In this document: piece after piece, positions 14,095 to 29,837 of the stretch
How the letters are laid out: the number at the start of each line of letters is the position of its first letter
How positions within the stretch are numbered: the first letter of the stretch is position 1
DNA from: a virus
Length of the DNA stretch: 30,987 bases
Direction: 5' to 3' (one strand)
Virus record (IMG/VR): IMGVR_UViG_3300046028_006108
Coordinates: 1 to 30,987 of that record
The notes under the pieces: generated by a model
What the model was told of the DNA's origin: nothing
Databases searched by the model: none
The model's input: only the letters and a program-made list of their open reading frames with translations
Program-made: the position numbers and the translations under genes

Positions 14095-14322
14095 ATGACA
14101 CTAGTTAAAGTTGATGATACTTCTTTTGTTCGGGACACCCATTCCAAAGCCATTCTAAATACGGACAGGAATGGGTTGAACGAATACTATATGAAACGGG
14201 AACTTGCTAAAAGACAGGCTATAGAAAAGCAACAAGACAAGGCTCGATTGGATAAACTAGAAGAAGATATGCAAGAAATAAAACAGTTGTTGCAACTTAT
14301 TGCCGCAAATCAGGATAAGTAA
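14095..14322 (+). CDS. Small coiled-coil virion-associated protein
   Basis: The product has 75 aa. I chose the ATG at 14095, one base after the upstream stop and preceded by AGCAGGTTAAT, rather than the in-frame ATG at 14041 inside the DUF4815 gene. The N-terminal part (TSFVRDTHSKAILNTDRNGL, then NEYYMKREL) resembles a small protein family I have seen in T4-like phages, where RD...KA(I/L)NTDR..L..Y is typical. Residues ~38-75 are strongly heptad-like and charged (RLDKLEEDMQEIKQLLQLI), which predicts a coiled coil. The last base of its stop is the first base of the next ATG (TAATG), so translation is probably coupled to the fibre gene. The exact role is unknown. Confidence 0.75.
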   Translation: MTLVKVDDTSFVRDTHSKAILNTDRNGLNEYYMKRELAKRQAIEKQQDKARLDKLEEDMQEIKQLLQLIAANQDK

Positions 14323-17456: not shown

Positions 17457-18971
17457 ATGGCTGGTATTTTTACACAACGTAACATAAATCAATTAAGAAC
17501 TCTTGGTGGATTACCAGGAGTTGCACCCACTTTTGTTGAATACCTTTGCGTTGCTGGTGGTGGCGGTGGTGGTACGGCTCAGCAAAATACTTATAATGCT
17601 GGTGGGGCGGGTGCTGGTGGTTTATTAACGGGCATGATTCCTGTTACGGCTGGTGCTTCTTATACAGTAACTGTTGGTGCTGGAGGCACAACTAATACTG
17701 TAGGCGTAAATTCTGTATTTGGTGCAATTACATCCAAAGGTGGTGGGTCAGGCGGTTCTGGTAGTTCAGGTGCGGTTGGTGTCAATGGTGGTTCTGGCGG
17801 TGGTGGAGCAGGTCACAATGATGTTGGCTCAAACAACGGCACAGGAATTTCAGGTCAAGGCAATAATGGTGGTTCTGGGTCAAGTTCCGCTGGTGCAGGC
17901 GTTTACGGCGGTGGTGGTGGTGGCGGCGCAGGAACAGTTGGTTTAAACGGAACACCAGGTACTGGTGGTAATGGCGCCGCTGGTATTGCATCATCAATAT
18001 CTGGAACAGTAACCATTTATGCTGGAGGTGGTGCTGGTGGAGCATCTTCTAGTCCTGCTGGTACGGGTGGCGCTGGTGGCGGGGGTAATGGTAACGCTGG
18101 TGCTGTTGGTTCTCCCGGTACAGTCAATACAGGTGGTGGAGGAGGCGGTGGTTCTGGGATTGGAGGAAGTTTTGCTGGTGGCACAGGCGGCGCAGGCTGC
18201 GTAGTAGTCAGATATCCTGGCACAACTCAGTTTTACACCGGTGGTAGTGTTTACACAATAGGTGGATATGTTGTACATCGGTTTCTGTCATCAGGTACTT
18301 TAACACCAACAACGCCAACTCCAGCCACAGTAGCTCCTTCAGTTATTGGCCAAGCATTCCAAGGCGGATTCTACGCTGGCATGATTGCGGCTAACGGTAG
18401 TGGATTTCCTACGCACTATTTGGTTGTTGCGCCAAAGGCATCTGGTGAATCATCAAAACAATGGAAAAATGCTACAACTGATACACCCAACGCAGACAGC
18501 TTTATTGATGGGCCACAAAACACGGCAGACATGGTTGCTGACGGAAACTCTACTGTTTACCCTGCGGCTCATTTCTGCAATGATTTGGTTATAGGCGGAT
18601 ACTCAGATTGGTATATGCCAGCACGAAACGAATTGGAAGTTTGCTATTACTTTTTAAAGAATGGAACTCAAAATAATTATATAGCGTCTGGAAATAAAGG
18701 AAATAATCCAAATGCAGTATTTCCAGAACCTATTTCTACGAATTACACAACCACTGTACCAGCGCAAACTACCGCAACGGCGTTTCAAGTTGGAAATTCT
18801 GAAGCGTTTCAAGATACGACTTATTGGAGTAGTACAGGGATGGGACACACTTATCCGGGAACCGACAATGCTTGGGGCCAACTTTTTTTCTCGGGTCAAC
18901 TAGGCGACCAAACAACATTTGGCAAGACAACTTCATATGTGGCTCGTGCAGTTAGAAGGGTGGCAATATGA
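17457..18971 (+). CDS. Glycine-rich adhesin 2 with Lcl/DUF1566-like lectin-fold domain
   Basis: This is a 504-aa protein with ribosome binding site AAGGTGAATA. N-terminal tag AGIFTQRNINQLRTLGG; scaffold VEYLCVAGGGGGG at 27-39; polyglycine and loops to ~254 (VVVRYPG). After the usual SGTLT point a Thr/Pro linker (TPTTPTPATVAP, 282-293) leads into a second domain, ~298-504. This has SDWYMPARNELEVCYYFL at 383-400, YWSST at 456-460, AWGQLFF, and VARAVRRV at the end, the pattern of Lcl/DUF1566 domains, which have a C-type-lectin-like fold. The phage probably uses it for receptor binding. Its stop overlaps the next start (ATGA). The Lcl call is fairly firm from motifs; the ligand is unknown. Confidence 0.78.
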   Translation: MAGIFTQRNINQLRTLGGLPGVAPTFVEYLCVAGGGGGGTAQQNTYNAGGAGAGGLLTGMIPVTAGASYTVTVGAGGTTNTVGVNSVFGAITSKGGGSGGSGSSGAVGVNGGSGGGGAGHNDVGSNNGTGISGQGNNGGSGSSSAGAGVYGGGGGGGAGTVGLNGTPGTGGNGAAGIASSISGTVTIYAGGGAGGASSSPAGTGGAGGGGNGNAGAVGSPGTVNTGGGGGGGSGIGGSFAGGTGGAGCVVVRYPGTTQFYTGGSVYTIGGYVVHRFLSSGTLTPTTPTPATVAPSVIGQAFQGGFYAGMIAANGSGFPTHYLVVAPKASGESSKQWKNATTDTPNADSFIDGPQNTADMVADGNSTVYPAAHFCNDLVIGGYSDWYMPARNELEVCYYFLKNGTQNNYIASGNKGNNPNAVFPEPISTNYTTTVPAQTTATAFQVGNSEAFQDTTYWSSTGMGHTYPGTDNAWGQLFFSGQLGDQTTFGKTTSYVARAVRRVAI

Positions 18972-24819: not shown

Positions 24820-25194
24820 ATGGCCGCACCAAATATTGTCAACGTAGCACTAATTAATGCTAATTCGAACACACAAATATTAACCTCAAATACTGAGATT
24901 GGTTTACTAAGTAATCCAGCTTCAAGTGGAAAAGTATATAAAGTAAATACTATTCTAGTAGCAAATAAAGACGGAGCTAATGCTATTGATGTAACTTGTA
25001 ATATATACTCAGAAGCAGCTTTAGCAGGAACTGGTTTTCCAATTGCTTTTACAATTAGTGTTCCCGCTGATGCTACTTTGATTCTTACTGATAAATCCAC
25101 ATCTTTCTATTTGGAAGAAAATCGTTCAATAGGAATTAAATCCGGATCAGCAAATGGTTTATCCGTTTTATGTTCTTGGGAAGAAATTAGTTAA
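24820..25194 (+). CDS. Small beta-rich virion protein (small beta family, member 3)
   Basis: This 124-aa protein has a strong GGAGGATAAAC ribosome binding site that overlaps the end of the previous gene. It reads as an all-beta protein: KVNTILVANKDGANAIDVTC, then ISVPADATLILTDKSTSFYL, then GLSVLCSWEEIS. The second half aligns with the 16169 protein (SIPGNSTLIVTDKS, VANSVSF..NLETIT), and the general plan with 15305. It follows a YLGN stalk gene and precedes a Gly-rich gene, repeating the order at 15622-17448. No enzyme motif is visible. A structural collar or adaptor role is inferred from position. Confidence 0.66.
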   Translation: MAAPNIVNVALINANSNTQILTSNTEIGLLSNPASSGKVYKVNTILVANKDGANAIDVTCNIYSEAALAGTGFPIAFTISVPADATLILTDKSTSFYLEENRSIGIKSGSANGLSVLCSWEEIS

Positions 25195-25204
25195 AGTATA
25201 ACAA

Positions 25205-26314
25205 ATGTCCGAACGCTACCTAGGCGGTTTCATTACCGCTTCTTATACTGGATTGAAAGTGCCTGATGCGCCCACGATTGGCACGGCTACTGCTGGGAAT
25301 ACTACTGCGAATGTAGTTTTTACAGCTCCATCAAATTCTGGAGCCAGCAACATTACAAGCTATACAGCAACTTCAAATACTGGTATTACAAGTTCAAACA
25401 CATCTTCTCCAATTGCATTTACTGGTTTGACTAACGATATAGCTTATACATTTACAGTAAAAGCTACAAATAGTTTTGGTAGTGGCCCTGCAAGTGCGGC
25501 TTCTAATAGTGTGATTCCAGCTGCACCAACTGGAACTCTTGCTGAGTATCTTGTTGTTGCTGGAGGTGGAGGTGGAGGTGGCGGCGGCGGTGGTGCCGGT
25601 GGTTTGTTAACTGCTGGAAACGGCACGGCTTTATTTAGCGGCACGTATACAGTCACTATTGGTGCAGGCGGTGCGTTCTCTGGAAATAATAATGGCGCAG
25701 CAACGGCGGGTAGCGGTGCAAACTCTCTAATAACAGGATATACTGCAATTGGCGGTGGAGGCGGTGGTTCTTACTCTAATGCTGGCGTTGCTGGCGGTTC
25801 TGGAGGCGGGGGTTCTTATGGTTCAACTAGCGCCGCAGGAGTTAGTGTAGGCGGAACGGGAACATCAGGTCAAGGAAATAACGGTGGCACAGCAACCAAT
25901 GTGGGCGTTTATCATGGCTGGATAGCTGGCGGTGGTGGCGGTGCAGGAGCGGTGGGCGGTAGTGCTACAAACTACGACACAGGTAATTCTTCTCCTTTTG
26001 GGCCTCTTGGAGGTGCAGGTGCGCCATCATCTATTACAGGTTCTGGTGTAACTTATGCGGCTGGTGGACAGGCCTACTATTCAAGCACTGTTAGCGGAGA
26101 TGCTACTGCAAATTCAGGAAATGGCGGAGGCGGTGCTAAGTCTCAAAACGCCGGAAGTAGCGGATGGAATGGTGGGTCTGGTGTTGTCATTATTGCTTAT
26201 CCCAATACATCTCCTGCACTAACTATTGGTGGTGGTTTAACCTACGACCAACCATCACGTTCTGGTTACAGGGTTTATAGATTCACTGCTGGTACAGGCA
26301 ATATTACTTTCTAA
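25205..26314 (+). CDS. FN3-containing glycine-rich tail adhesin 5 (YLGG tag)
   Basis: This is a 369-aa protein. Tag MSERYLGGFIT at 1-11; a fibronectin type III domain at ~19-108 (PDAPTIGTATAGNTTANVVF, ITSYTATSNTG, GLTNDIAYTFTVKATN, GPASAASNSVIPAAP); then LAEYLVVAG. An unbroken run of 11 glycines (120-130) follows and leads into AGGLL. In the sister proteins this run is split by a loop. Later loops include VYHGWIAGG and SPFGPLGG. The closing part is GVVIIAYP, then YRVYRFTAGTGNITF. FN3 domains in phage tails are thought to aid surface binding or act as spacers. The FN3 domain closely matches that in the 28021 protein. The ribosome binding site is weak. Confidence 0.77.
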   Translation: MSERYLGGFITASYTGLKVPDAPTIGTATAGNTTANVVFTAPSNSGASNITSYTATSNTGITSSNTSSPIAFTGLTNDIAYTFTVKATNSFGSGPASAASNSVIPAAPTGTLAEYLVVAGGGGGGGGGGGAGGLLTAGNGTALFSGTYTVTIGAGGAFSGNNNGAATAGSGANSLITGYTAIGGGGGGSYSNAGVAGGSGGGGSYGSTSAAGVSVGGTGTSGQGNNGGTATNVGVYHGWIAGGGGGAGAVGGSATNYDTGNSSPFGPLGGAGAPSSITGSGVTYAAGGQAYYSSTVSGDATANSGNGGGGAKSQNAGSSGWNGGSGVVIIAYPNTSPALTIGGGLTYDQPSRSGYRVYRFTAGTGNITF

Positions 26315-26324
26315 GGAATAAAAA

Positions 26325-27293
26325 ATGCCTAGTTACACGGGAATTTGGACAATCACACAACAGATGCAGGCTGTAGCAGCTAACACTTGGACGGGCCTAA
26401 GCAGTACGAGTCCGAGTCCTACTACTTTGCCAGTATATACTACTCAAGGTGCAAGTAGTTACATAGCTTCTCCGACTGGCACTATAAATGGCACGCCTTA
26501 TAAACTTATGGGTGCTTCTTCAAATATGGGTTTGGCAAACACCACATATTTAGATTCACATACTTATTATTGTACGGATTCTCTTGGAACTAACTGGTAT
26601 ATTGCCGCCAATTGGGGATATGGATTGCCATCACGGTGGAGTGGCGTAAATCGAATGGGCGGCCCTGGAAGTGGCGCAGACACAGCTCCTGCATACACCA
26701 CGGCGGATGGAATACCAGTTAATCTAACCAACTTAAATTTAAATTATGTACGTACTGGTACTGCTGCTAATACAATTGTATTCACAAGTGATTACTCCGC
26801 TAATAGTAGTTCTTTAAAACCTGGTTCATTCCAATTTGATGCGCTTATTTTTGGTAACCAATCAGGACCTGGTTTTGCAAATTGGTACGCTGATTCTAAT
26901 AAGGCCGCACAAACTTATCCGAGTATTGTTACAGCAGTACATAACAATTGGAATGGAGCTTCAGCTGTTCAAACCTATGATAGCGCTCCACAAGGAGATG
27001 ATAACGGGGGCTGGCTATGGTGGAGACCGCCACTAAAGACTAGTGAGGTTATGATAGATTTTGGAAATTCCTACGACAACAATCCATGCCGGTTGTTTGT
27101 TTGGAATAACTTCACAGGGGCAGTAGTTTTGATTGTAAATTATGGTAAGAATGGTAATGTTGACGTATCGGCTAATGCAATTAATGACCAATATACTAGA
27201 ACAATTATTATCAAACATACTGAAGGATTTGTTTATTTTATGGGCGATTTGGGCCCAACAATTGCAGGCTCTCATTATTATTTGTACAGATAA
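26325..27293 (+). CDS. Aromatic-rich distal fibre candidate with GIWT tag, novel body
   Basis: This is a 322-aa protein with ribosome binding site AAGGAATAA. Residues 5-22 (TGIWTITQQMQAVAANTW) match the GIFT/GVWT tag of other genes in this array. The remaining ~300 residues are unrecognised, beta-like and rich in Trp and Tyr (TNWYIAANWGYGLPSRW, then GGWLWWRPPLKTSEVMID), with a C-terminal part VYFMGDLG...HYYLYR. No glycine scaffold is present although the gene occupies the place where GIxT Gly-rich genes stand in earlier pairs. Two cysteines are present (near 83 and 255). A receptor-binding domain or an enzyme acting on surface glycans are both possible; no catalytic motif is recognised. Confidence 0.6.
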   Translation: MPSYTGIWTITQQMQAVAANTWTGLSSTSPSPTTLPVYTTQGASSYIASPTGTINGTPYKLMGASSNMGLANTTYLDSHTYYCTDSLGTNWYIAANWGYGLPSRWSGVNRMGGPGSGADTAPAYTTADGIPVNLTNLNLNYVRTGTAANTIVFTSDYSANSSSLKPGSFQFDALIFGNQSGPGFANWYADSNKAAQTYPSIVTAVHNNWNGASAVQTYDSAPQGDDNGGWLWWRPPLKTSEVMIDFGNSYDNNPCRLFVWNNFTGAVVLIVNYGKNGNVDVSANAINDQYTRTIIIKHTEGFVYFMGDLGPTIAGSHYYLYR

Positions 27294-27302
27294 GGAATAA
27301 TT

Positions 27303-27653
27303 ATGGCACATTATGCATTTTTAGATTCTAATAATATTGTTACAGAAGTCATCGTTGGCAAAAATGAAGGCGAAGATGGTATTGATTGGGAACAACACTA
27401 TGGTGAATTTCGTGGTCAAACTTGTAAACGAACAAGTTACAATACTTATGGCGGCGTTCACCTAAATGGTGGTACACCATTACGTAAAAATTATGCTGGT
27501 ATTGGTTTTACATATGATTCTATTCGTGACGCATTTATTCCACCAAAACCACACCCTGATTTTCTATTGAATGAAGATACTTGCACTTGGTACACAACAA
27601 ATCCAGCCTTGTATTACGGCGATGTTATGGTAACACCTGTTGAGGAAGCATGA
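27303..27653 (+). CDS. KNYAGIG-family marine phage protein, copy 1
   Basis: This 116-aa protein has ribosome binding site AAGGAATAA. N-terminus MAHYAFLDSNNIVTEVIV and central PLRKNYAGIGFTYDSIRDAF with FIPPKPH match the 29484 protein closely. This family is very common in cyanophages and other marine phages, usually unannotated and near fibre genes. The C-terminal part (FLLNEDTCTWYTTNP) keeps the LNE-T--W core but lacks the APV...YRWDE segment present in the 29484 and 18968 proteins. The stop overlaps the start of the cupin gene (ATGA), tying it to that gene in translation. Function unknown; an accessory factor for adjacent adhesins is my inference. Confidence 0.7.
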   Translation: MAHYAFLDSNNIVTEVIVGKNEGEDGIDWEQHYGEFRGQTCKRTSYNTYGGVHLNGGTPLRKNYAGIGFTYDSIRDAFIPPKPHPDFLLNEDTCTWYTTNPALYYGDVMVTPVEEA

Positions 27654-28024
27654 AGACTTTTGAACTTGGTTACTTTGGTAACATTTGGGTTAAACAAAAT
27701 GTTCTCGAACATGCAGGCGAAGCCTTTGATGGACACGAACACAAATTTGACCACGTAACCTTATTAGTGTCAGGTAAGGTCAGCGTTCAAATTAAAGATA
27801 ATACACCTAAAGAATTTACGGCTCCAACTTTTATTGTGATTCGCAAAGAACATCAACACAAAATTACTGCGCTTGAAGATAATACAATTTATTATTGCGT
27901 GTATGCGTTGCGTGATTTAGATGGAGAAACAATGGAAATATTTGGTGACCAACATGATCCTGAATATGCAAGCACTAGAAGCGATGGATATTGGGAAAAA
28001 GTTAAAGAATTGGAAAATACATGA
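27650..28024 (+). CDS. Cupin-fold protein
   Basis: This 124-aa protein is linked by four-base ATGA overlaps on both sides. The cupin pattern is visible: GHEHKFDHVTLLVSG at 28-42 gives His29, His31, His35 and Gly42. This fits cupin motif 1 (H-x-H-x3-E-x6-G), but with His at the usual Glu position. A second His cluster, KEHQHK at 66-71, could supply the motif-2 ligand, followed by TALEDNTIYYCVYALRD. The proline-glycine of classical motif 2 is missing. Metal binding in a small beta-barrel is likely. Substrate unknown. Being sandwiched between a KNYAGIG gene and an FN3 adhesin gene suggests it acts on, or assembles with, fibre components. It could alternatively act on a host metabolite. Confidence 0.75.
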   Translation: MKTFELGYFGNIWVKQNVLEHAGEAFDGHEHKFDHVTLLVSGKVSVQIKDNTPKEFTAPTFIVIRKEHQHKITALEDNTIYYCVYALRDLDGETMEIFGDQHDPEYASTRSDGYWEKVKELENT

Positions 28025-29370
28025 GTAAAAAGTATCTTGGCGGCCTAATCACTAAGACTCCAGTTACGCCAACCACAAATTCTGCATCTGGTGTTTGGAC
28101 AATTGACCAAGCGGCTTATTGGAGAAAAATTAATGTGTGGCCTTTTCCTTCAAGAATTCCAGGTGCTCCTACTATTGGCACGGCTACAGCTGGTGATACG
28201 TCCGCAAGTATAGCCTTTACAGCACCAGCCGACTTAGGTATACCAGCAACAATTACCAGTTACACAGCAATATCAAGTCCTGGTGGACTTACTGGTACTG
28301 GCGCATCTTCTCCTGTTACGGTTTCAGGATTAACAAATGGTACTTCCTATACATTTACGGTAACTGCAACAAATTCTTTTGGCACAGGCCCAGCGAGTGA
28401 AGCTTCTAATAGTGTAAGTCCAGCTGCTTTCAATGGAGCAATACAATTCCTTGTTGTTGCAGGCGGAGGATCTGGCGGTATGCAAGGTAATCGTTCAGGT
28501 GGTGGCGGTGGTGCTGGAGGACTTAAATCATCTTACACAGCTGGCGGTGGTCCTAGCGGCTCACAGTTGAGTGTTATTACTGTGACTCCAGGAACCAATT
28601 ACACAGTAACCGTTGGTGCTGGCGGTGCATCAACAACTGCTGGCCAGCCGCAACACGGATTGCCAGGTTCCACTTCGGTGTTTAGTACAATCAGTACTAC
28701 TGGCGGTGGTGGCGGTGGTGGTATTACTGACTACGGCACATCTTCACCAGCTTCAAGAAAGAATGGTGGTTCATCCGGTGGTGCTAATGGATATGAAAAT
28801 ACTCCTGGTACTCCAGTTGCAGATGAAGGATATACCGGTGGTACTGGTCAGTCAGCAGAAACTAATGGCGGTCTTACTGGTTATGCTCAAGGCTCAGGCG
28901 GTGGTGGCGGCGGAGCAAATGCTGCTGGTGGAAATGGATCTGGCAGCTCTAGTAGCTTACTTGGTGGTAATGGTGGTGCTGGAAGAACTTCTTCCATTAC
29001 TGGAAGTTCTGTAACTTATGCTGGTGGTGGCGGTGGAGCAGCTACTAATTATCAAGGAGCTAAAACTGCTGGTGTTGGTGGGTCTGGCGGTGGCGGTGCT
29101 GGCGGTATAAGCGGATCTACAGGCACAATGAATGGTACAGCTGGTGATCCAAATACTGGCGGTGGCGGCGGAGGTGCTTCTCAACATCCTGAAAGTGGTT
29201 CAGGTTGGCCAGGTCGTAGTGGTGCTGGTGGTTCTGGCGTAGTTATTCTTAGATATGCAGGTGGAATGACAATTACACTTGGTGCTGGATTAACAGGCAC
29301 AACTGCAACAGATGGAGCTAGCAAAGTCACAACAATTACTGCTGGTACAGGTAATGTTTCTTGGACTTAA
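28021..29370 (+). CDS. FN3-containing glycine-rich tail adhesin 6 (YLGG and GVWT tags)
   Basis: This is a 449-aa protein starting in an ATGA overlap. Residues 1-12 hold the YLGG tag (MSKKYLGGLIT) and residues 22-41 hold a second tag, ASGVWTIDQAAYWRKINVW, so two tags that usually start separate genes stand in one protein. FN3 domain ~46-136 (PGAPTIGTATAGDTSASIAF, GLTNGTSYTFTVTATNSFG, GPASEASNSVSPAA), then IQFLVVAGGGSGG, loop MQGNRS, then GGGGGAGGLK and many glycine runs with loops (YGTSSPASRKNGG, QHPESGSGWPGRSG). It closes with GVVILRYAGG and AGTGNVSWT. Roles inferred as for the other Gly-rich adhesins. Confidence 0.77.
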   Translation: MSKKYLGGLITKTPVTPTTNSASGVWTIDQAAYWRKINVWPFPSRIPGAPTIGTATAGDTSASIAFTAPADLGIPATITSYTAISSPGGLTGTGASSPVTVSGLTNGTSYTFTVTATNSFGTGPASEASNSVSPAAFNGAIQFLVVAGGGSGGMQGNRSGGGGGAGGLKSSYTAGGGPSGSQLSVITVTPGTNYTVTVGAGGASTTAGQPQHGLPGSTSVFSTISTTGGGGGGGITDYGTSSPASRKNGGSSGGANGYENTPGTPVADEGYTGGTGQSAETNGGLTGYAQGSGGGGGGANAAGGNGSGSSSSLLGGNGGAGRTSSITGSSVTYAGGGGGAATNYQGAKTAGVGGSGGGGAGGISGSTGTMNGTAGDPNTGGGGGGASQHPESGSGWPGRSGAGGSGVVILRYAGGMTITLGAGLTGTTATDGASKVTTITAGTGNVSWT

Positions 29371-29483
29371 ATAATGGATTATAATTTTTCATTAGATTCA
29401 ATTACATTCTAACTAAATACAGTAATCAATGACACAGTAAGTATCTTATTAGATACAGTAACTTTTTAAATGGACAATAAAAT
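29371..29483. other. Intergenic leader with possible gene-end remnants
   Basis: These 113 bases are the longest gap in the array. One frame reads a 12-codon ORF at 29374-29412 ending LDSITF-stop and then, in the same frame, a second stretch ending LDTVTF-stop at 29469. Both ends resemble the SGTITF-stop C-termini of the Gly-rich genes. ATACAGTAA occurs twice (29417-29425, 29453-29461). ACTAAATA at 29412-29419 could be a weak late promoter for the 29484 gene. A remnant of a deleted adhesin gene is one reading; chance is another. Confidence 0.3.
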
Positions 29484-29837
29484 ATGGCACATTTTGCTAA
29501 AGTAGAAAACGGTATCGTTACACAAGTAATCGTTATCGACCAAGAAACATTAAACACCGGACATTGGGGTGACCCAGCATTGTGGGTTCAGACCTCGTAT
29601 AATACACAAGGCGGCCAACATCCAGAAGGCCGTCCTTTGCGTAAAAACTATGCAGGTATTGGTTACAGTTATGACTCTGGCCGTGATGCATTCATTCCGC
29701 CAAAACCATATGCTTCATGGGTTTTAAATGAAAATACATGTTTGTGGGCAGCACCAGTTGCTATGCCAACAGATGATAAGATGTATCGTTGGGATGAACC
29801 AACAACATCATGGGTTGAAGTAACTACACCAGCATAA
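29484..29837 (+). CDS. KNYAGIG-family marine phage protein, copy 2
   Basis: This 117-aa protein has N-terminus MAHFAKVENGIVTQVIVIDQ, then WVQTSYNTQGGQHPEGRPL, then RKNYAGIGYSYDSGRDAF with FIPPKPY, and finally SWVLNENTCLWAAPV and YRWDEPTTSW. This is the full form of a family widespread in T4-like cyanophages and other marine phages. It is paralogous to 27303 along most of its length and shares its C-terminal ~35 residues with 18968. It stands between an FN3 adhesin gene and a stalk gene. No signal peptide or membrane segment is seen. The repeated neighbourhood supports a fibre-related accessory function, unproven. Confidence 0.72.
   Translation: MAHFAKVENGIVTQVIVIDQETLNTGHWGDPALWVQTSYNTQGGQHPEGRPLRKNYAGIGYSYDSGRDAFIPPKPYASWVLNENTCLWAAPVAMPTDDKMYRWDEPTTSWVEVTTPA

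Follow-up and report, generated by a model that had tools for sequence, protein, structure and literature searches.

Organisation of the fibre array and of its aromatic-rich gene

The window analysed here (the whole 30,987-nucleotide stretch of IMG/VR record IMGVR_UViG_3300046028_006108) contained a T4-like baseplate module with wedge genes at 1472 (phrog_261), which we take to be gp25-type, and at 1877 (phrog_219). The gp numbers of the baseplate genes are our assumption, save for the gp6-type wedge at 1877, which was named by sequence match. The nearest relatives of this wedge, at 39% identity, were those of Methylophilales phage Melnitz (PMC9004378) and Pelagibacter phage HTVC008M, cultured phages whose hosts are Methylophilales sp. 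H5P1 and Pelagibacter HTCC1062. A match to a "baseplate wedge tail fiber protein connector" was found at 14322, and from 15 kb onward lay a tail-fibre array with glycine-rich, fn3, DUF7483 and Lcl_C domains (Table 1). Variable host-recognition clusters of this kind are known in pelagimyophages (PMC7029224). No tRNAs were found in the window. The gene at 17457-18971 carried an Lcl_C domain (PF07603, 36.5 bits, cut-off 34.9) fused to a glycine-rich body, a further head arrangement in the array. The small protein encoded at 27650-28024 gave weak matches to AraC_binding (E 0.03) and phrog_34170 (E 4.5e-5) and was read as cupin-like, and the small MAAPN gene at 24820-25194 matched nothing in Pfam or PHROGs; its probable counterpart in Phage DSL-LC04, paired by eye, is annotated "putative lectin".

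Table 1. Features of the fibre region and of related loci.
Feature	Coordinates	Strand	Evidence
Partner gene: YLGG tag 25205-25255, fn3 ~25256-25519, glycine-rich body 25520-26311	25205..26314	+	Pfam fn3 and Gly_rich_2
Aromatic-rich tail-fibre gene, 322 aa	26325..27293	+	ORF; ATG start; AAGGA-like sequence upstream
GIWT attachment tag, residues 1-22	26325..26390	+	64% identity to second-gene tags of L005 and L006 (other body there)
Linker, residues 23-34, without fn3 (relatives have fn3)	26391..26426	+	
Orphan aromatic-rich body, residues 35-322 (288 residues); presumed host-binding head	26427..27290	+	72%/70% identity to relatives; no family match
phrog_7759-like small gene, candidate fibre chaperone	27303..27653	+	phrog_7759, E 8.7e-28
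Later adhesin with fn3 and a glycine-rich body behind a YLGG plus GVWT tag	28021..29370	+	Pfam fn3 and Gly_rich_2; tag by motif search
MAHYA/MAHFA-type genes	window 27303-27653, 29484-29837; L005 6661; L006 7029; L013 5954; L033 9001, 11631		motif search
MAHYA/MAHFA-type genes (others)	L034 5928; L035 5001; L036 5001; L037 5001; L066 4587		motif search

The product of the 26325-27293 gene carried GIWT at residues 6-9, followed about 13 residues on by a conserved W, the pattern of a GIxT tag. The initial annotation had described this gene, from its letters, as an open reading frame rich in Trp and Tyr, with the motifs WYIAANWGYG, GGWLWWRPP and HYYLYR and no glycine scaffold, and the sequence and composition counts bore this out. 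All three motifs were found, and Trp plus Tyr made up 10.2% of the protein (33/322) versus 4.85% for the 27 other listed genes pooled (binomial P 5e-5), the highest value among listed genes of at least 200 residues; the small array genes at 29484, 18968 and 27303 were similarly rich (9.5-10.3%). The remark on glycine was right because the content of 10.2% lies far under the 24-32% of the glycine-rich neighbours; Gly_rich_2 in Pfam was not matched, so that no glycine-rich distal domain was recognised. Across the three available body sequences, 24 of the 30 body Trp/Tyr residues were invariant versus 191 of all 288 positions, an excess that was not significant (P 0.067). Both Glu and 9 of the 15 Asp were invariant as well. 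No internal repeat was found within the body.

Small genes whose products start with MAHYA, MAHFA or a similar string (MAHYA/MAHFA-type) recur beside such fibres. The set was assembled by motif search (14 rows, from which two L013 rows repeating the window were dropped), and in 10 of the 12 distinct cases the gene lay directly behind a glycine-rich fibre gene, the exceptions being window 27303 and L034 5928. The window members belong to phrog_7759, whose function is not annotated. By analogy with gp25, which serves gp24 in Pam3, their products may be chaperones of these adhesins; a PDB profile search with a MAHYA/MAHFA-type protein did not show a chaperone identity. In DSL-LC04, a 2OG-Fe(II) oxygenase gene immediately precedes the MAHFA gene.

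Exchange of bodies between tags and between phages

A motif search yielded 17 distinct GIxT-tag proteins of at least 200 residues in 12 loci, a non-random sample in which L007-L011 had been fetched through the tag itself. Fourteen of the 17 bore glycine-rich bodies (24-34% glycine), one a DUF7483 domain (L011), one six Laminin_G_3 domains (L034, Phage DSL-LC04; PMC10611076) and one the orphan body. The bodies on the tag are therefore exchangeable, and at least one belongs to a known lectin family. The DSL-LC04 protein (OR003939.1) resembles the window adhesins in having a YPGG plus GVWT tag, 56% identical over 41 residues to that of the window gene at 28021, and differs in its laminin-G domains, which had no detectable similarity to the orphan body.

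The relatives of the orphan body in L005 and L006 were not on the GIWT-type gene. There the body sits on the preceding gene, after a YQAS/YQAG tag and an fn3 domain, and the GIWT-type gene bears fn3 and the glycine-rich body that the window places on the tag of its upstream gene. We compared these parts pairwise, labelling the window W, L005 A and L006 B, with 1 and 2 for the first and second genes. The tags stayed in their slots, with window-to-relative identities of 64-76% (W1-A1 65%, W1-B1 76%, W2-A2 64%, W2-B2 64%; 65-88% for W1-A1-B1 and 64-68% for W2-A2-B2 when the A-B pairs are included). The bodies matched crosswise: W1-A2 77%, W1-B2 74%, W2-A1 72% and W2-B1 70% (74-77% for W1-A2-B2 and 70-86% for W2-A1-B1 with the A-B pairs), whereas bodies in the same slot were at background (W1-A1 25%, W1-B1 27%, W2-A2 25%, W2-B2 30%). 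The DNA gave the same borders, with the L005 match to the orphan body running from window 26425 to the stop codon at 27293 and that to the glycine-rich body covering 25267-26322, ending just past its stop. Thus, at both the protein and the DNA level, the C-terminal body was exchanged apart from the N-terminal attachment part, which shows a two-module build of tag and body and an exchange of bodies between tags. The initial annotation had placed the body in the slot of an adhesin behind an adhesin tag, and its trade with a glycine-rich body supports that placement. The W1 fn3 domain was 64% and 66% identical to those of A2 and B2 versus 60% to each of those of A1 and B1, a weak hint that fn3 may have moved along with the glycine-rich body. 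One exchange event suffices for the pattern, since among the three sequences L005 and L006 are near each other (86% body identity). Four further contigs (L001-L004) encoded a protein identical to that of the window in near-identical DNA, so no head switching was seen inside the population that they represent. Separately, the fn3-coding stretches at 25267-25524 and 28164-28427 shared 72% DNA identity and could act as recombination sites for body exchange.

The L006 contig (60,977 bases) encoded a portal (phrog_1216) and a large terminase (phrog_38), and the gene order of its fibre region resembled that of DSL-LC04 when compared by eye. The protein encoded at L006 10277 was nearest to the DSL-LC04 stabilization protein (40%) and to Pelagibacter phage HTVC023P (37%), and no T4-type baseplate family was found among the 17 proteins of this contig that were scanned. 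Judged from sequence, the L006 phage thus appears to be DSL-LC04-like, in morphology as well, and unrelated to the T4-like window phage. The L005 flanks looked like those of L006 by eye, and the DNA similarity of L005 and of L016 (the L006 contig) to the window was limited to window 25205-29826. With a T4-like phage on one side and a seemingly unrelated one on the other, the cassette would therefore have crossed lineages too.

Searches for relatives and known families

The 26325-27293 gene had no match in Pfam, PHROGs or NCBIfam, and in PHROGs version 4 the body, its relatives and its fragments gave only chance-level hits. When relatives and fragments were scanned singly, phrog_10123 (E 0.047-0.081), phrog_16812 (E 0.11), Tape_meas_lam_C (E 0.13) and DUF3934 (E 1.9) appeared and were set aside as chance. 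No match was found among PDB sequences for the body or for its glycine-rich partner body; antibody heavy chains (best E 0.018), which share a DSxxYYC-like string, and ACE2 (E 0.69) were likewise dismissed. None of the four collections gave a confident match to a known tail protein family with a different function, the outcome that would have refuted the initial annotation. Its description of this gene as the one with the least known relatives in the array nearly held: of ten array genes scanned with an E limit of 1, only this one and the 24820-25194 gene had a match in neither Pfam nor PHROGs.

The body is rare in IMG/VR. A whole-protein scan of the viral contigs returned 11 loci, six with the body (L001-L006) and five with the tag only (L007-L011), and scans with the body alignment recovered the same six records. 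With the window this makes seven IMG/VR records and three distinct sequences: the window and L001-L004 (100%), L005 (4657-5517, 72%) and L006 (5013-5876, 70%). A loose WYxAxNxGYG pattern found those six records and contig L042, which was body-like over 14 residues only. The pattern TEGFxYFxG occurred in 27 stretches, namely the six known records and 21 others, none of which matched the body profile (E up to 1). No relative of the body was found by tblastn in 50,697 phage records or in the GTDB genome contigs scanned, and profile searches across the fetched loci gave no additional body. A viral-contig scan with the glycine-rich partner body gave at least two weak loci. More remote relatives of the orphan body may exist because the scans require short near-exact peptides or clear similarity. 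For the three pairs of body sequences, dN/dS (NG86) was 0.203/0.696, 0.222/0.646 and 0.078/0.464, or about 0.29, 0.34 and 0.17. These values are well under 1, so the protein is under constraint (purifying selection).

Proposed role and comparison with known systems

The body is probably an exchangeable receptor-binding head of a tail-fibre or baseplate adhesin. Its gene lies in the array of tail-fibre genes that follows the T4-like baseplate module, and the presence of the same head on the tag of the neighbouring gene in two other phages suggests an interchangeable host-recognition head. The short N-terminal tag would dock the adhesin on the phage tail and the C-terminal aromatic-rich head of 288 residues would contact the host, where the neighbouring genes encode glycine-rich heads instead. 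Recombination, perhaps assisted by the repeated fn3 segments, would trade heads between tags and between unrelated phages and could let a phage alter what it binds. The target may be a glycan, and sugar binding by the body itself is a guess from its composition. Counting against this reading, the excess of Trp/Tyr conservation over other residues lacked significance, the swap rests on three sequences of which two are close to each other, and the association with phrog_7759 fits glycine-rich heads better than the orphan head.

Aromatic-rich surfaces suit sugar clefts, and this, together with the invariant acidic residues and the shared adhesin slot, would also fit an enzyme, a small tail-bound depolymerase or esterase trimming the polysaccharide on the host surface. 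We regard this as improbable: no enzyme family was matched in Pfam, NCBIfam or PHROGs, no known catalytic or beta-helix domain was recognised, and most known beta-helix depolymerases are larger than the 288-residue body. A structural or protective fibre module (a spacer, cap or chaperone-like domain) rather than the part that meets the host is similarly improbable. Chaperones that may serve as caps are indeed known from phage fibres (PMC10579305), but the body is C-terminal and swaps with a glycine-rich body, a kind of domain to which host recognition is ascribed in Pam3 gp24 (PMC9608196), and no chaperone family was matched in Pfam or PHROGs.

Somewhat less remote, though still doubtful, is that the body is a ConA-like or laminin-G lectin that has drifted past sequence recognition. 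DSL-LC04 does have a laminin-G body behind this kind of tag, and as a lead only, the likely strand order in residues 230-308 (a W-rich strand, GN, RLFVWNN, LIVNYG, IND and RTIIIKHTEGFVYFMGD) recalls what we take to be the arrangement of laminin-G domains. That pattern was not supported: a profile comparison with the six DSL-LC04 laminin-G domains gave a probability of 1.9, and three C-terminal fragments did not match the Pfam laminin-G models at E up to 10. This alternative overlaps with the preferred one, as such a domain would be a receptor-binding head of known fold. AlphaFold models of the full-length protein (with three sequences) and of its C-terminal 158 residues had mean pLDDT values of 27.2 and 31.7, too poor for a fold search. 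Returning to the receptor-binding head, a bolder form of that reading is also doubtful. In it, the body would be a new head fold with no glycine lattice, no beta-helix and no lectin domain of a known kind. Such a head would bind or trim a glycan on the surface of some abundant aquatic bacterium and, by tag swapping, would pass between contractile-tailed phages and phages of other types.

Most receptor-binding proteins of phages that infect abundant aquatic bacteria lack annotation. Here, a natural head exchange between two adjoining tags marks the module borders within a few residues, without a structure, and draws attention to a head family missing from the searched libraries. The same head on two tags and the same tag with two heads make a ready-made test set for head recognition. 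A limited search of the open-licence literature, made by text rather than by sequence, found no description of the orphan head or of the tag.

The window shares the tail-fibre slot with adhesins of the Pam3 gp24 and S16 gp38 type, and the partner gene also shares their glycine-rich body (Gly_rich_2); the orphan body differs, as glycine makes up 10% of it and its sequence shows no glycine lattice (PMC9608196 for gp24 and gp38). In that source, host recognition by Pam3 gp24 is attributed to its glycine-rich and TNF-like domains, and its N-terminal part docks to the baseplate. Host-recognition modules common to morphologically distinct phages have been described in Alteromonas phages, where A5 and V22 (PMC10579305) resemble our case in sharing a host-recognition cassette between distinct lineages; there a fibre and its chaperone are shared, whereas here two heads also traded tags between adjoining genes. 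Head exchange in receptor-binding proteins was already known from work on domain mosaicism, and the shuffling of protein fragments outlined in PMC10684548 is the general process to which our case belongs, with the difference that PHROGs version 4 contains no match to the orphan head. What is new is a head family missing from the libraries searched, together with an exchange that defines its borders.
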